Shown: positions 484-63,443 of the stretch, one piece after another
How positions within the stretch are numbered: position 1 is the stretch's first letter
How the letters are laid out: each line of letters opens with the position of its first letter
NCBI GenBank assembly: GCA_019096195.1
Contig: JAGTXK010000103.1
Location: forward strand, 558,001 to 622,000
Length of the DNA stretch: 64,000 nucleotides
From: Boletus sp. NGJ
Taxonomy: Eukaryota; Basidiomycota; Agaricomycetes; Boletales; Boletaceae
Reading direction: 5' to 3'
The notes under the pieces: generated by a model
Database searches by the model: none
Seen by the model: the letters and a program-made list of their open reading frames with translations, nothing else
Told to the model about the DNA's origin: nothing
Made by a program: the position numbers and the translations under genes

Positions 484-807
484 TCAAGCTGCCTCCGGAA
501 TCAACCCACCCCTACAATGTTTTCTGCCACCATTACGTCTGGGCTCACCCTGAATATAGCCTAGTCCTCTAAAGAGATCATCCATGAAGGCCTGGAATGT
601 TGCCGGGGAATTACACATCCCAAAGAACATCACGTTTGGTTTGAACAACCCGAATGGGGTGAGGAAAGCTGCTTTCCACTGATCTTCAGGTTTGATCAAA
701 ACATTATTGTAGCCCCATCGTACGTCAAACTTGATGAAGATCGACGATCCCTTTAATTTGTCCAGGAGATCGGAAATTAAGGGGAGGGGGTAGGCATTCT
801 TGATCAT
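484..807 (-). pseudogene. Gypsy reverse transcriptase N-terminal part (part of the fossil)
   Basis: [30 protein letters not shown] and [12 protein letters not shown] are typical of the fingers and palm of Ty3/Gypsy reverse transcriptase. The catalytic YxDD region and everything beyond it are absent because the similarity stops at about 484. It is a relic. Confidence 0.8.
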
Positions 808-2363
808 GTGGCTGTTGAGATATCGGTAGTCTTGGCAGGGGCGGAGCTTTCCATCCTTCTTCTGTATGAAGAAGGGAGTGGCCTGGGGAGATTTTGATGG
901 AGATATCTTCTCAGTTTTAAGGTGTTCGTTGATGAACTCTTTGCATGCCTGTAGTTCCAGGGGGTTTAAGGGGTATGCCTTGGCTCATTTCAGGACAAAC
1001 GAGTCTTTTAACTCAATGGCATGGTCGTAAAGCTGGGAGGGAGGTAACTTGGTGATTGTCTTCTCCATGAAGACATCTGCGTATTCTTTGAATGCATCTG
1101 GTAATGCAATCTTGGCCTTTGGTGCCTGTTGGGCGATCTTGGTAGACAGAGTGGTTCTCTTGATGACAAACTCTGGTACATCCCCATGTGTGTTGAAAAA
1201 CTTGGCCCATTGTAAGGGTGTCCAATGACAAAAGGTTTCGTAGAGTCTGTCTTGCACATACTCTTTTTCGTCGTGTTCCAGATACTGTAGCAGGTATTGT
1301 TGTTCCAGTGTTCCCAGTGGGTCCCCTTGGATCCATCAGTAGGAAGATGGCACTATGGTTACCCGTTCTTCCATCCAGTTGATATCAGGGTTCACTGCCC
1401 TGAGCCATGGAAGTCCTAAAATGACTTCATCCTTGCCACAATTGAGAACATAGAGATCCCGCCGTTCTCATATGCCTCCATAGTCCAACACAATGTTGGT
1501 CTTCTCTTTGATGGTCCCTAACTGGTTTTGGGTTCCATTGATGTTCCAAGCTCAGACCGGGTTGTCCAGCTTCCATGTGGGTAATCTCATTTTCTCCACT
1601 GCTTGTCTTGAAATGAAGCATCCAGTTGCTCCACTGTCGATTAGAGCTTTGGTTCCAACAATTTTGCCATCCTGCTTCCAGATCAAGAGAGGAATGCGAA
1701 TAGAGTTACTCTTCGATCCAGAAATAAATACAGGTGCAATTGTGTAGGAAGAGGGTGACATTGGTACACCTCTTCCATCTAAAAAGATGTTTCATCTTCG
1801 GGGGAAATAGTGGAGATTTGCGTAGCAGGTGCGGGTCTTAGGGCAAGAGAATCAATGTTCTCTTCCCATTCTATTGTGGCAGCTTCTTCCACTCATTCTA
1901 GAGCGAGGCCTTGCTCATTGAGCCTCATGTCAAAGGCTGTCTGGAGTGTCCTGAGAACTTTGTCTCGTCCATTGTTTCTGGAGATCTCTGTGAGATATTT
2001 GTCGAGGGGATCTTGTGGCATTTCCCTGGTGATGACCACCCTGGTGTGCATTTCCTGGGGTTTCCTATATTCCTCTCTCCTGATCAGCCTGTATCCTGGG
2101 TGTTTCCTAGTACTACACCCAATCTTGTTGCAGATGAAGCATCTGTGCTCTCTCATCCACTTGGCGCGCTCGATAGGAGACAAGGTGATTCGGTCCACGT
2201 CCATAGCGTTTGAGTCATGGTGGTTTCCTTTTCCTCTTCCAAAGGACGTGAAGGGTCCTTTCTGTATTCCTTCAATCTGTTGCCATGCCCTGTGGATGTT
2301 GGCAGCTACTTCATAAACCTCTTCCATCTTCTTCGCTTTTTGAAAGGTCTCGCTGTTGACTAG

Positions 2364-3272
2364 TTACTGGGCAATGTTCAGATCGATCCCCCTGAGGAAG
2401 AATTCCAGGATAGAGCGGAATTCCTGTAGCTCAGAGTGAACTATCAGCAGTGAGAATGGGGAAATGAATTTGTCAAATCCCTTTGAATCCCATCTATCTT
2501 GTTGGAGGGATCCTAGTTCTGCCATGACTAGGTTGCTGGTGTTGTGGGGGGTGAAGGTGAAGGTGAAGGCTTTCTTGATTTCATTATAGGTTTTATCTGC
2601 ATGTGGCACAGTGTTGTCGAGTAGCCTGGTCAGCCAGGCTTCTGCAAACGCTTTTCCTCTTCCCTTGGACATCCTGTTCAATAGGATAAGCCTCTTGGCT
2701 TTCTCTGTGAACTTCTCTGCTCCTCCTAGATAAAAGTATCCTTCCATAGCCATAAGCCATCTCTTGGCATCGTTGGTCTCTCCTGAGAACTCCTCAGGCA
2801 AGGCAGCTTTGATTTCAACCATATCATTTTTGTTGTCTGTGTCTTCTTCGGGTTGGGGATTTCCTGGGTTGGGATCAGAACTAGATCTTCCACTTTGATT
2901 GGGGAAGAGAGAGTCAGGGGAATCTACTCTGATGGGAAGGAACCAGTTGGAACACGGGCAGTGGGATAGGATCTGCCGATGGGGTCGTGGTTTGAGAGCA
3001 GAGACCACCTGGAAAATCTGGTCGTCTGGGTGGATCTGGAAATGCACAGGATGGGGGGTCGTTGTAATGGGATGATGACCCTGGGATCCTTCTTGAAGAT
3101 GTGTCGGAGATAGGAGTAGAAGCCCGTGACAGTGTGGCTTCTTCTTCTTGATCTTCTCCGAGGAGCTGGGCAAGGTTGATTCTGCACAGTGCATAGAGTG
3201 AGGGCCTATCCTCTGATAGGCAGTTCTATTCCCTTGAATAGAGTTGAGAGTTGCTGGACTAGATAGTTCCAC
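2364..3272 (-). pseudogene. Gypsy gag-like region (part of the fossil at 484-3280)
   Basis: The frame encodes a proline- and glutamine-rich N-terminus followed by a retrotransposon gag core (LPEEFSGETNDAKRWL, then TYNEIKKAFTFTF). It is the upstream part of the minus-strand Gypsy fossil and is followed by the zinc-knuckle piece. It is treated as a relic. Confidence 0.7.
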
Positions 3273-3280
3273 AGCAATTT

Positions 3281-3600
3281 ATAACCTAGATCTTTTGTTA
3301 CAGTGGGTAACAATGTGACATGTTCCCGAGTAATTAACCTGTTTGATTACTGGACTAGCAGGACTTGAGGGGAAAATACCTCCAAAGGCCCAATGATTCC
3401 TCTAACTGGGGACTGGCTGCTAGCTTTACATAGAGTGTCCTGGTTGCCTCTACAACCAATGGCAAAGTCTTGGATTTACCACAGTGGCGCAATCCTCCAA
3501 GAAGGAAGGGCAGACTGGAATGTGGAGGCCAGCGACTAAGTGTCCTGGGCTTACATGGCCTAGTGCCGGTGGTGGAGTCCCGGGCGTACATGGGCCAACC
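3281..3600. other. Unassigned stretch between Gypsy gag and repeat R
   Basis: This holds the upstream flank of the Gypsy gag in element orientation. I could not identify an LTR edge or a primer-binding site here. It is AT-rich and without a clear coding frame. Confidence 0.3.
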
Positions 3601-4196
3601 TCTGTTGGCATTGGAGTTGCCGAAGCTTTAGAAGCAGGTTCAAACGGCAATGAGGCCACACAAGTGCACAGTGATGAGGAAGACAATCACGAGCACAAGG
3701 GCAATCACCTCCAGAGTGAGAGTGAGCTTCTGAGGTGGGCAGAACCGAGAGCTGGGGAAGCTGGGTAGATTACATGGGAAGTTGTGTAGATCTAGGTTAG
3801 AGTTACATGAAGGGCCAGCGTCCCTATATATTGGCCCTGCCCATCTAGGGCAGGCTTCATATCATATATGGTAATCGTAAGTCACAGACAGAAGACTACC
3901 ATAATGAATCAAGGCATCAGTTAAATGGTAGGTTGGAATACTAGGCTGTGCACAAGAGAGCACAGCTGAGGAGGCATTGTCTATGATCAGATCAAAAGAG
4001 GTGAAATGCATGTATCAATGAAATAGGAAGGTGGTGTCCAAACCAAACAGATAACTTCCTAGAAAGGGAGTTCCAGATGGGGCAATGCCTGAGTTGGTGT
4101 CGCAGGGGAATCCCTGGTCCGAGTCAAAGAATAGGTTGTCCCACAGTCCTATGGGGGGTGAAGGGAGAGGAAAAGATGTACCTCCTTCTATAACCA
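3600..4196. repeat. Dispersed repeat R, copy 1
   Basis: About 600 bp here align, with moderate divergence, to 60,960-61,565 in the same orientation. Shared blocks include GACATCAGTTAAATGGTA (as GGCATCAGTTAAATGGTA here), GGAGGCATTGTCTAT and AGGTTGTCCCA. TATA-rich sequence near 3,825 (CTATATATTGGCCCTGCC) and a short inverted pair GCCCATCTAGGGC lie inside. On the minus strand both copies keep a similar peptide around GLWDNL (see Findings). It may be part of an LTR or of an unrecognised element. Confidence 0.65.
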
Positions 4197-5135
4197 TAAC
4201 AAAACCTAAACCTAAACCTAAATCAAAAGTATACAAAAAGTGTAGTCAAAGGTGTAGTCAAATGTTGCACAAAAAGTGTAGGAAAGAGTGTAATACAGTG
4301 TAGCAAAAATGCGCACCAAATGTAGCAAAAGTGTAGCAAACAAAGTGTAGTAAAAAAAAAGCAAACAAAAGTGTAGTACAGTGTAGTACAGTGTAGCAAA
4401 CAAAGTGCACCAAAAGTGTACCAAAAGTGCACACCAAAGTGTAGTAAAAGTGTAGTCACACAGTGTACCAAAAGTGTAGACCTACATTCAAAAAATATAC
4501 AAGTCCATTTTCCCACACTCAGTGTTAAAAAAGCGGACATTGTTTGCCAATGTTTGTGCCACCATTCTTATGTAAACAAGCCAGATTTCAAAAACTTTCC
4601 CATACTCTCTTGTTTCTTAATTTTATCCTTCTCTACTCATTACATTAAGTCAACACTTTACTTTGTAAATCATTAGGATTGGGATTGGGATTGGGATTGG
4701 GACTGGGACTGGGATTAGAATTAGGATTAGGATTAGGATTAAGATTAGAATTAGAATTAGAATTAGAATTAGAATTAGTAGAATTAATATTTGATTGAAT
4801 TTGAAATTAGAATTGGCTTGAAATTGGATTAGAATTAGAATTAGAATTAGAATTGCTAAGCCACTATGGAAGCACTATGTATACTATGGCATCACTATGA
4901 TCACACTATAAGACACTATGAGGATACTATGAGATACTATGGAAATACTATGACCACTATGAAAGCACTATGAGAATACTATGAGACACTGAGAATACTA
5001 TGACAGATTATGGCCACACTATGAACAGACTATGAGACACTGTCATATTACTATCAAACCACCATCCAGTTGGACCCTCACTATGAGCACTATGTTACTG
5101 TCCAGCACTGGACAGTTAGTCCTGTTTTTACTGAT
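4197..5135 (+). repeat. Compound array element, copy A (near full)
   Basis: Modules run in order. First come CCTAAA units (4,202-4,222). Next is an array of GTGTAG-type units (about 4,235-4,480), then a non-repetitive core of about 190 bp (4,480-4,672). After that come GGGATT, GGACTG and TTAGGATT units (4,674-4,855) and an ACTATG-type array (4,864-5,095). The end is a palindrome GTCCAGCACTGGAC and the tail TCCTGTTTTTACTGATG. The same order is found in reverse complement at 62,125-62,975. I see no credible protein; open frames across the GTGTAG array are just the repeat translated. Confidence 0.85.
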
Positions 5136-5149
5136 GGGTGAGATTGTTC

Positions 5150-55089: not shown

Positions 55090-56340
55090 AATCCTCAACA
55101 AACTGCTCTTTATGATGCAGTCATGAATAATGTCATCAGCTCTCTTGGATCTTCATTCTTTCTTCACAGTAATGGTGGTTGTGGCAAGACTTATCTGGCA
55201 AGCCTCATTGCTGCTTCTGTTTGTGCAAGAGGTGAAATTGTTCTTTGTGTTGCCTCAACTGGTCTGGCCTCCCTTCTACTTTCTGGTGATTGTACAGCCC
55301 ATTCATGCTTCAAGATTCCTATTCCCATTCATGAACAAAGCACCTGCAACATCAAAAAGGACAATTTTACCCATCAACTTCTTCAGCAGACCTCTCTTAT
55401 TATTTGAGATGAAGCAGGTTCTTAACACCATTTTATTCTGGAATCTGTTGATCGTACTTTGCATGACTTGCTCAATAGAGATCATCCATTTGAAGGAATC
55501 ACCATTCTACTCAGTGGAGACTTTAGACAAACTTTGCCTGTTATTCAGCATGGATCAAGGAAGCAAATTGTTCCAGCTGCTCTAACCCACTCTAATCTTT
55601 GGCTCAACATGGCTATTCACTATCTTCATCAAAACATGTGCCTTGGCCAAGATCCTGAGTTAGACCAATGGGCACAGCAGCTTCTTCACATTGGTGTAAC
55701 TGATGGAGATCTCATGCTCCCTGAACATATGCATTGTGGTGATGACATGGCTTCCCTCATCAATGCCATATACTCTCTACTCCTTACTGGAAATCAGCAG
55801 CTTCCTGACCAGTACTTTCTGGATAATACAATTCTCAATCCCAGAAATACCCAGGTCCATGAAATCAATTCCACTATTCTTAACTCTGCGGCACCTCAAG
55901 AAAAGTTCATCTATCTTAGTGCAGATTCAGTCACTGATCAAGAATATAACTATATTCTACCAGAGATTCTCCATACTTTCAATCCTTTTGAATTTCCCCT
56001 TCACAAACTGGAACTGAAGATTGGTGTGCCATTTATGCTATTATGTAATCTGGATCCCATTCATGGTCTTTATAATGGAACTCACTTGAGGCTGCTTGGA
56101 TCTATTCACAGGATCTTGGAGTGCCATGTATTAAGTGGAGATGGTGGTAATAATGCCAACAATTTGATTTTGATTCCTAGATTGGCCCTTAATTCTGATT
56201 TGGAAGATTCTCCAGTTCCATTACATCACTTCCAATTCCCTGCACATTTGGCCTATGCTATGACAATCAATAAAGCTCAAGGTCAAATAGTGAAGCATGT
56301 TGGTCTCAATTTGAGCACTTCTGTTTTCTCTCATGGATAA
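55090..56340 (+). pseudogene. Helitron PIF1-type helicase region
   Basis: A P-loop-like SNGGCGKTYL (55,170) stands where GxGGTGKS/T is usual. CVASTGLASLLLSGDCTAHS follows. After a stop and a frame change the reading continues with ILLSGDFRQTLPVIQHGSR (Walker B-type) at 55,500. It then runs unbroken for 293 codons to AYAMTINKAQGQIVKHVGL (motif VI) and a TAA at 56,338; the usual ending (ALLRCTHPRNIKVLF) continues past this stop in frame. A broken domain of the Helitron. Confidence 0.85.
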
Positions 56341-61565: not shown

Positions 61566-62124
61566 ATCAATTGATAAAGAGAGGGCAATGGGGTGGGCCA
61601 AAGGTTGAGGTGGCAGTAATAGTGCCATGATCCAATCTGGAAAATAAGTGCAGATGCAGCAGCAGGAGTGACAATGCCTGTAATTGAGGATTTCACATGA
61701 GTGCTGAAGATGAATCACTTGGTTAGAAACAGCTTGACATTGTGGGGGAAACTATATATCTTCTAACAACCAATGGAACTACAGTCTGCATGCCTGGCTA
61801 TGATTAACCTCTGCATCTAGCTCTTCCAGCTCCCACATGTTGTTTGTCAATTCTTGTAAACATTTCTCCTCCATTTTATCTAGCAATCTGTGCTTTGCTT
61901 CATTGAATGGTGAGATGGTGTTTCTCCACTGACCCTATCCCAGGCTCAGATGCAGGAAATCATGTTGACAAATGTGACACATGCCTGGAAATAGTGGGTG
62001 GCAAATTTTATCATTTAGAGGAATATATCCTTCTCGCTGGGCTCAGCCATGTTGTCCTCAATCCACCATGCCACATCAAATCTTCCTGCTCCAGTAGGAT
62101 CCCAATTGGTAAGAAATTGTGGAA
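61566..62124. other. Unassigned stretch
   Basis: The plus frame 61,907-62,137 contains CDTCLEIVGGKFYHLEEYIL, which is mildly protein-like with CxxC; otherwise nothing. Confidence 0.3.
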
Positions 62125-62975
62125 TGTTCATCAGTAAAAACAGGACTAACTTTCCAGTACTGTCCAGTACTGGACAGTAACATAGTGCTCATAGTGAGGG
62201 TCCAACTAAATAGTGGTTTGATAGTACTATGACAGTGTCTCATAGTCTGTTCATAGTGTGGCCATAGTCTGTCATAGTATTCTCATAGTGTCTCATAGTA
62301 TTCTTATAGTACTTTCATAGTGGTTATAGTATTCTCATAGTATCTCATAGTGTCTCATAGTGTCTCATAGTATTCTCATAGTACTTTCATGGTGGTCATA
62401 GTGATGCCATAGTATACATAGTGCTTCCATAGTGGCTTAGCAATCCTAATCCTAATCCTAATCCTAATCCTAATCCCAGTCCCAGTCCCAATATCCTAAT
62501 TCTAATAATTTACAAAGTAAAGTTGACTTCATGTAATGAGTAGAGAAGGATAAAATTGAAAAACAAGAGGGTGTGGGAAAGTTTTTGAAGTCTCGCTTGT
62601 TTATATAAGAATGGTGGCACAAACATTAGCAAACAATGTCCGCTTTTGTAACACTAAGTGTGGGAAAATGGACTTGGATATTTTTTTTGAGTGTAGGTCT
62701 ACACTTTTGATACACATTGTGACTACACTTTTACTACACTTTGGTGCGCATTTTTGGTATACTTTGTTTGCTACACTGTACTACACTCTGCTACATTTTG
62801 TTTGCTTTTTTACTACACTCTGTTTGCTACACTTTTGCTATATTTGATGCGCATTTTTGCTACATTGTACTACACTCTTTTCTACACTTTTTGTACAACA
62901 TTTGACTACATCTTTGACTACACTTTTTGTACACTTTTTGACTACACTTTTTGTATACTTTTGATTTAGGATTAG
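62125..62975 (-). repeat. Compound array element, copy B (near full, inverted)
   Basis: Read on the minus strand the modules match copy A in order. CCTAAATCAAAAGTATAC lies at 62,953-62,972. A GTGTAG-type array lies at about 62,700-62,955, and the core at about 62,510-62,700 (AAAAGCGGACATTGTTTGC matches copy A at 4,529). Then come TTAGGATT/GGGACTGGGA units (62,444-62,505), an ACTATG-type array (62,185-62,440), the doubled palindrome CCAGTACTGTCCAGTACTGG, and TCCTGTTTTTACTGATG. Confidence 0.85.
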
Positions 62976-63300
62976 AATTAAAATTAGGATTAGCTTAAAA
63001 TTACTACTATGACTATGACTACTATGAATGTACTATGAATGCTATGAAATGCTATGATACTATGATACTATGATACTATGAACACTATGAGGATACTATG
63101 GATATTATGAATATACTTTCAATACTATGACACTATGAATGCTATGGTACTATGATATTATGATACTTTAAACACTCTATATACACTATGGATACTATGA
63201 ATACACTTTCCACTATGAACACTATGAACACTATGAGTTATCTATGAAACTACTATGGCACTATGAGCACTATGATGAAATCCTGTATTTACTAATGAAC
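62976..63300 (+). repeat. Compound array element, copy C (partial, head-to-head with B)
   Basis: It starts with GGATTAGAATTAAAATTAGG, passes into a long ACTATG-type array (63,005-63,275) and ends TCCTGTATTTACTAATGAAC, close to the terminal text of copies A and B but without the palindrome. With copy B it makes a large inverted arrangement. Confidence 0.75.
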
Positions 63301-63443
63301 ATTAAAGACTATCTGGTCTTCTAGTTGTGACTACAGAACCACTGTTTCAGAATCTTCTGAATGCAAATAAGATGCCTGCTCTGAGAATGTCCTGTGCAGA
63401 TATCAGCAGTGAGTGTACACATGTCTTGAGTGAGCTAGTTATA

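Follow-up and report, generated by a model that had tools for sequence, protein, structure and literature searches.

Elements of the dSpm type are non-autonomous members of the CACTA/EnSpm superfamily, in which the subterminal motifs of the two arms are oppositely oriented. In the part of the literature available to us, such elements, among them soybean Tgm, combine short terminal inverted repeats (TIRs) with reiterated asymmetric subterminal motifs, and in Spm/En the subterminal repeats are recognised by the TNPA protein (PMC2613891). Among the elements of fungi, the Laccaria bicolor MITEs are, according to the accessible portion of their description (PMC3411680), short, non-coding and present in many copies. 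PlavakaB, a DNA transposon group that has received little study and that the available part of its source places in the CACTA-like CMCT clade, has the termini 5'-CATCA..TGATG-3' and target duplications of 2 or 3 bp (Kojima 2025, PMC12730594); the same part of that source describes no non-autonomous members, its main text containing "mite" and "nonautonomous" zero times each, and no description of a non-autonomous Plavaka element was found in the openly licensed literature in so far as its text was accessible.

The repeated element described here, two copies of which (A and B) were first noticed in the 64-kb window that we analysed (the whole stretch of DNA presented above), has the CATCA..TGATG termini and 2-bp target duplications given for PlavakaB in the available text of PMC12730594, but differs from that group in its compound subterminal arrays and in that no coding sequence was found in it. 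It resembles dSpm and Tgm in its short TIRs and reiterated asymmetric motifs; CACTA elements, however, end in CACTA, generate 3-bp duplications and reiterate one motif, whereas this element ends in CATCA, is flanked by 2-bp duplications and carries several kinds of array. It is also short, non-coding and abundant, as are the Laccaria bicolor MITEs, although none with these ends or arrays was seen in the accessible portion of PMC3411680, where CATCA occurs zero times in the main text.

Boundaries and architecture of the element

Sequence comparison of copies revealed inverted termini at both ends of the element, which in its complete form measures about 1.1 kb and has 17-bp TIRs, CATCAGTAAATACAGGA at the left and TCCTGTTTTTACTGATG at the right (Table 1). 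The left arm leads from the TIR through a CATAGT array and an AATCCT array to the GTGTAG array and the conserved core; in the right arm AGGATT mirrors AATCCT and ACTATG mirrors CATAGT, GTGTAG being confined to the left. A GTCCAG palindrome lies near the right end, where parts of it can be made out in further copies as well. The initial annotation had described the arrays, a core of about 190 bp, the palindrome and a fixed tail, in the same order in copies A and B, and all of these are real; the unit is nevertheless larger, as the left arm with its TIR, CATAGT array and AATCCT array had been missed. With this arm included, copy B, formerly placed at 62,125-62,975, spans 62129-63297. The tail is present as described, but its identity is that of the right TIR, which ends at 5136 and has the left end as its inverted partner. 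Four reading frames of 90-114 amino acids from copies A and B gave no Pfam match above the cut-off (best E 0.043), and scanning the window against Rfam (gathering) and for tRNAs returned zero matches each.

Table 1. Positions of the element copies, their parts and the adjoining retrotransposon in the window
Feature	Position	Strand	Basis
Broken coding part of the LTR retrotransposon (reverse transcriptase; weak gag match)	484..3278	-	Pfam, reading frames
LTR of the same retrotransposon, ends TGTTA..TAACA, abutting and interrupting copy A	3296..4201	-	Repeat alignments ending at 4201 in 13 other loci
Copy A without left arm (AATCCT-type remnant, GTGTAG array, core, GGATT array, ACTATG array, palindrome, right TIR)	4202..5136	+	blastn to full-copy positions 243-1115, 80.6% identity; sequence
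GTGTAG array, copy A (left-arm-only type)	4224..4479	+	Tandem repeat finder; GTGTAG 205 left / 0 right of core key, 21 copies
Single-copy core, copy A	4470..4676	+	35-copy alignment, mean pairwise identity 94.3%
GGATT/ATTAGG array, copy A (right-arm counterpart of AATCCT)	4677..4854	+	Sequence, tandem repeats, motif counts
ACTATG subterminal array, copy A	4863..5094	+	Tandem repeat finder; strand polarity of motif
Palindrome CTGTCCAGCACTGGACAG beside right end, copy A	5098..5115	+	Sequence; parts also present at the right end elsewhere
Right TIR of copy A, TCCTGTTTTTACTGATG	5120..5136	+	150 genome matches to 21-base right end, control 0
Third copy, right-end fragment, 62 bp, 83.9% identity	58318..58379	-	blastn
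Copy B, complete, 1169 bp, both TIRs, flanks without 2-bp duplication	62129..63297	-	Sequence, blastn
Right TIR of copy B	62129..62145	-	Sequence
CATAGT subterminal array, left arm of copy B (outside the unit first annotated)	63012..63275	-	Tandem repeat finder; motif counts
Left TIR of copy B, CATTAGTAAATACAGGA	63281..63297	-	157 genome matches to 28-base left end, control 0

Copy A is parted from its left arm at the point where a second repeat sits, and this repeat is an LTR retrotransposon. In 13 other loci among those examined, alignments of the LTR stop exactly at 4201 (in 1 of these also at 4203), so that bases 4197-4201, with which copy A had been thought to start, belong to the LTR, and the transposon portion begins at 4202. 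The broken frames beside it gave a Pfam match to RVT_1 (E 4.2e-16) and one to Retrotrans_gag (E 1.5e-4, 22.3 bits) that lies below the cut-off of 24.1, and from its proteins we take the retrotransposon to be Ty3/gypsy-like. We infer that the LTR was inserted into a once complete copy A; a search for the left junction predicted by such an insertion gave one genome match, on contig C94, and none on C114. Copy B is immediately flanked by AATGTT (62123-62128) and AACATT (63298-63303), which are inverted rather than direct repeats and possibly reflect either chance or a rearranged insertion.

Motifs were counted in 21 of the 27 non-redundant copies that have both ends, namely those shorter than 1300 bp, the six with long inserts being left out. 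To the left and right of a 15-base core key we found CATAGT 369 and 14 times, ACTATG 0 and 277 times, AATCCT 42 and 0 times, AGGATT 18 and 107 times, and GTGTAG 205 and 0 times, which shows that the two arms mirror each other while the GTGTAG array is asymmetric; the opposition of CATAGT and ACTATG is of the kind seen in the two arms of CACTA elements. A copy carries on average about 18 CATAGT and about 13 ACTATG units. A landmark scan yielded 44 rows, of which eight matches to the core key (up to 3 mismatches) were set aside as they lacked the core-start landmark. The remaining 36 copies showed no departure from the landmark order, which was tested within each arm because the script preset on which side of the core a landmark was to lie, and all nine landmarks were present in 16 of them. 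Spacing within the core was close to constant (63-68 bp ahead of the key, 104-127 bp behind it) and array segments were more variable in length (standard deviation 21-47 bp). In an alignment of 35 cores, mean pairwise identity was 94.3% (range 88.5-100%) and divergence from the majority sequence 3.4%, with 208 transitions and 39 transversions. Conserved in this alignment is a stretch resembling TATATAAA, which reads TATGTAAA in copy A and may represent a promoter.

The six longer copies (L006, L014, L020, L026, L031 and L032) contain additional DNA. A single longer master form behind them was considered and rejected, given that their break points, in element coordinates, lie mostly apart (near 1070 in L006, 922-938 in L014, 900-934 in L020, 201-268 in L026, 613-621 in L031 and 855-892 in L032), those of L014 and L020 being close. 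A Tc1/mariner-like element is nested in L032 (2594-3187, minus strand; Pfam), and another was recognised by eye in the right arm of L020. Directly outside the right end, at L030:7300-7640 and in the right flank of L049, we also observed GTGTAG-like arrays in inverse orientation within very similar flanks, which suggests another repeat family that shares this kind of array.

Insertion footprint and distribution in the genome

Target duplications were scored in the 27 copies mentioned above, which were drawn from loci L001-L058 and the window and have 60 bp of flank or more. Thirteen of the 27 carry an exact direct duplication of 2 bp, against a permutation mean of 3.05, and 13 was reached in 0 of 2000 permutations; the remaining 14, which include copy B, carry no 2-bp duplication. 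Other lengths gave 7 copies at 1 bp (6.7 by permutation), 0 at 3 bp and 1 at 4 bp. The duplicated bases were TA in four copies, CA and TG in two each, and GA, AA, CT, TT and GG in one each. Most of these copies end in CATCA..TGATG; point variants include CATTA, TAATG and a single CCTCA.

Tc1/mariner MITEs duplicate TA only. A non-autonomous TIR transposon of another superfamily, for example a mariner-like TA inserter or a relative of ISL2EU/Harbinger, that begins with CATCA by chance would be compatible with the four TA duplications and with the occurrence of Tc1/mariner-like sequence in the genome and inside two copies. We consider this origin unlikely, as nine of the 13 duplications are not TA, the Plavaka transposase domain PF18759 is abundant in the genome, and all five terminal bases agree with those of PlavakaB in the available text of PMC12730594.

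The joined flanks of the 27 copies were also searched for matches spanning the joint, that is, for related empty sites. Such matches were obtained for five copies, and four of these were retained (L002, L008, L009 and L046); that of L032 was dropped, as it falls in arrays. The empty sites of L009 (duplication AA), L046 (TT, four relatives) and L002 (GA, one substitution) are clean; in L008 the site is imprecise, a few additional bases being present on the left. At the left ends of L008 and L026 the left TIR is preceded by an extra TA and, before that, by a CT matching the right flank, which hints either at imprecise insertion or at a sub-lineage whose ends are extended.

Because it combines TIRs with short target duplications and empty sites, the unit is a DNA transposon of the cut-and-paste type, with no coding capacity that could be recognised. 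The initial annotation had proposed a mobile unit with no protein of its own, and this proposal is upheld by the TIRs, by the 2-bp duplications (13/27), by the related empty sites (4/27) and by the 128 to 157 dispersed matches reported below. The same TIRs and 2-bp duplications make it very improbable that the element is Helitron-like (DINE/helentron) and replicates by a rolling circle, even though a palindrome near the right end, internal tandem arrays and a PIF1-type helicase frame within the window could all be cited for such an element. Typical Helitrons, in fact, have no TIRs and cause no target duplication. The PIF1-type fragment in the window (55426-56337, plus strand; PF05970) looks like another at about position 1690 of L053, recognised by eye, and the two possibly belong to Helitrons.

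The assembly searched comprises 32.8 Mb in 141 contigs. The 15-base core key had 128 matches with at most one mismatch (reversed-pattern control, 1), the 21-base right end 150 with at most two (control, 0) and the 28-base left end 157 with at most three (control, 0). A blast search with the core gave 172 candidates, of which 40, the window's own included, were scored, all 94-100% identical. Thus, neither of the outcomes that the initial annotation had named as speaking against its reading, arrays shared without the core or the order and a core restricted to the window, was found. Core matches are clustered: among the 100 of the 128 that were listed, 37 pairs lie within 50 kb of each other, against 15.1 expected if they were uniformly distributed, and this fits repeat-rich islands. 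Some of the stretches examined are nearly identical to each other (L035 and L036, 99.5% over 2205 columns, and L042 and L051, 99.8% over 2200, each pair on different contigs; L033 and L034, 96% over 706 columns, at two places on contig C22), and we read these pairs as segmental duplications or haplotype copies.

Clustering and the TTAGGA-like inner arrays are what could be said for a structural or satellite unit, linked to telomeres or centromeres or Penelope-like, the link to telomere-attached Penelope-like elements having been guessed at first. To this we attach next to no probability, since the copies are dispersed single insertions, with related empty sites for four of them, the clustering is equally expected from repeat-rich islands, the ends are TIRs, none of the four frames matches Pfam above the cut-off, and the TTAGGA-like arrays lie in the interior of the arms. 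Nor was a telomere signal found, a genome search with four TTAGGG units giving 11 matches, which lie on two contigs, and its reversed control 33.

Plavaka assignment and the search for an autonomous partner

With good confidence, we assign this non-autonomous cut-and-paste transposon to the PlavakaB group of the CACTA-like CMCT clade as its most likely place. Its termini and the length of its target duplication are the only two features on which this putative assignment is based. The genome contains 131 exon-level matches to the Plavaka transposase (PF18759), a domain with matches in 0 of 14 control genomes.

No PF18759 match was found within these ends at L055-L057 (with 3.2-3.6 kb of sequence taken either side of the Pfam match), on C109 or on C7. 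At L055-L057, a CATCAGTAAA-type pair accompanied by a duplication was absent from the ten best pairs listed for each locus; the CATCA pairs present were weak (3 mismatches in 14), and L056 and L057 each had one single-sided near match. A further Plavaka locus, L058, yielded no matching TIR pair, and searches with TIR variants altered at the next base gave 0 matches in one case and 7, against 1 for the control, in the other. A Plavaka gene (L030) and a Plavaka fragment (L029) directly adjoin copies of the element; in L030, the Plavaka sequence lies just ahead of a copy missing its first 40 bp. The 19-bp end beside the L030 gene had one exact match and 31 with at most three mismatches (control, 5), and no other on C94 among the matches listed.

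A supposed giant autonomous element at C109:579228..598154 (L053 and L054) was rejected, as it proved to consist of a solitary left end of 98 bp and a separate short copy. Among the 20 loci taken for their right ends (L033-L052), left ends were present in two (L046 and L050) and not found within the 2 kb taken in the other 18, and none of the PF18759 matches listed for the genome falls in these 20 stretches. An autonomous element with these ends was, overall, not found among the loci examined.

Proposed mechanism and implications

The element would be mobilised in trans by a transposase made elsewhere, presumably that of Plavaka, which would recognise and cut at the CATCA..TGATG TIRs and insert the element with a 2-bp duplication; of this scheme, the ends, the duplications and the empty sites are observed. 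By analogy with Spm/En, the mirrored CATAGT and ACTATG arrays could serve as multi-site docking places for the transposase or for an accessory DNA-binding protein. That unlike arrays keep their order suggests that the element is moved as a single block, and the number of units in an array probably drifts through tandem slippage. Docking and mobilisation in trans, if they occur as proposed, would account for why the order and the core stay constant, why the arms have mirrored polarity and why unit numbers vary. We advance only tentatively, and as rather doubtful, the fuller proposal of a PlavakaB element whose ends are recognised through long mirrored hexamer arrays, in a TNPA/TNPD-like two-component system in fungi, and whose TATA-containing core would be a promoter remnant of a lost transposase gene.

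What looked like an odd "compound satellite" is now a well-bounded transposon family with countable copies. Mirrored arrays in the arms of a transposon can mimic telomere-like satellites, and annotators should be warned of this. The Plavaka group, in turn, gains a likely non-autonomous member with a rich and testable subterminal architecture and, if its arrays bind a Plavaka-encoded protein, recognition by a two-component system of the CACTA type would extend to fungi.
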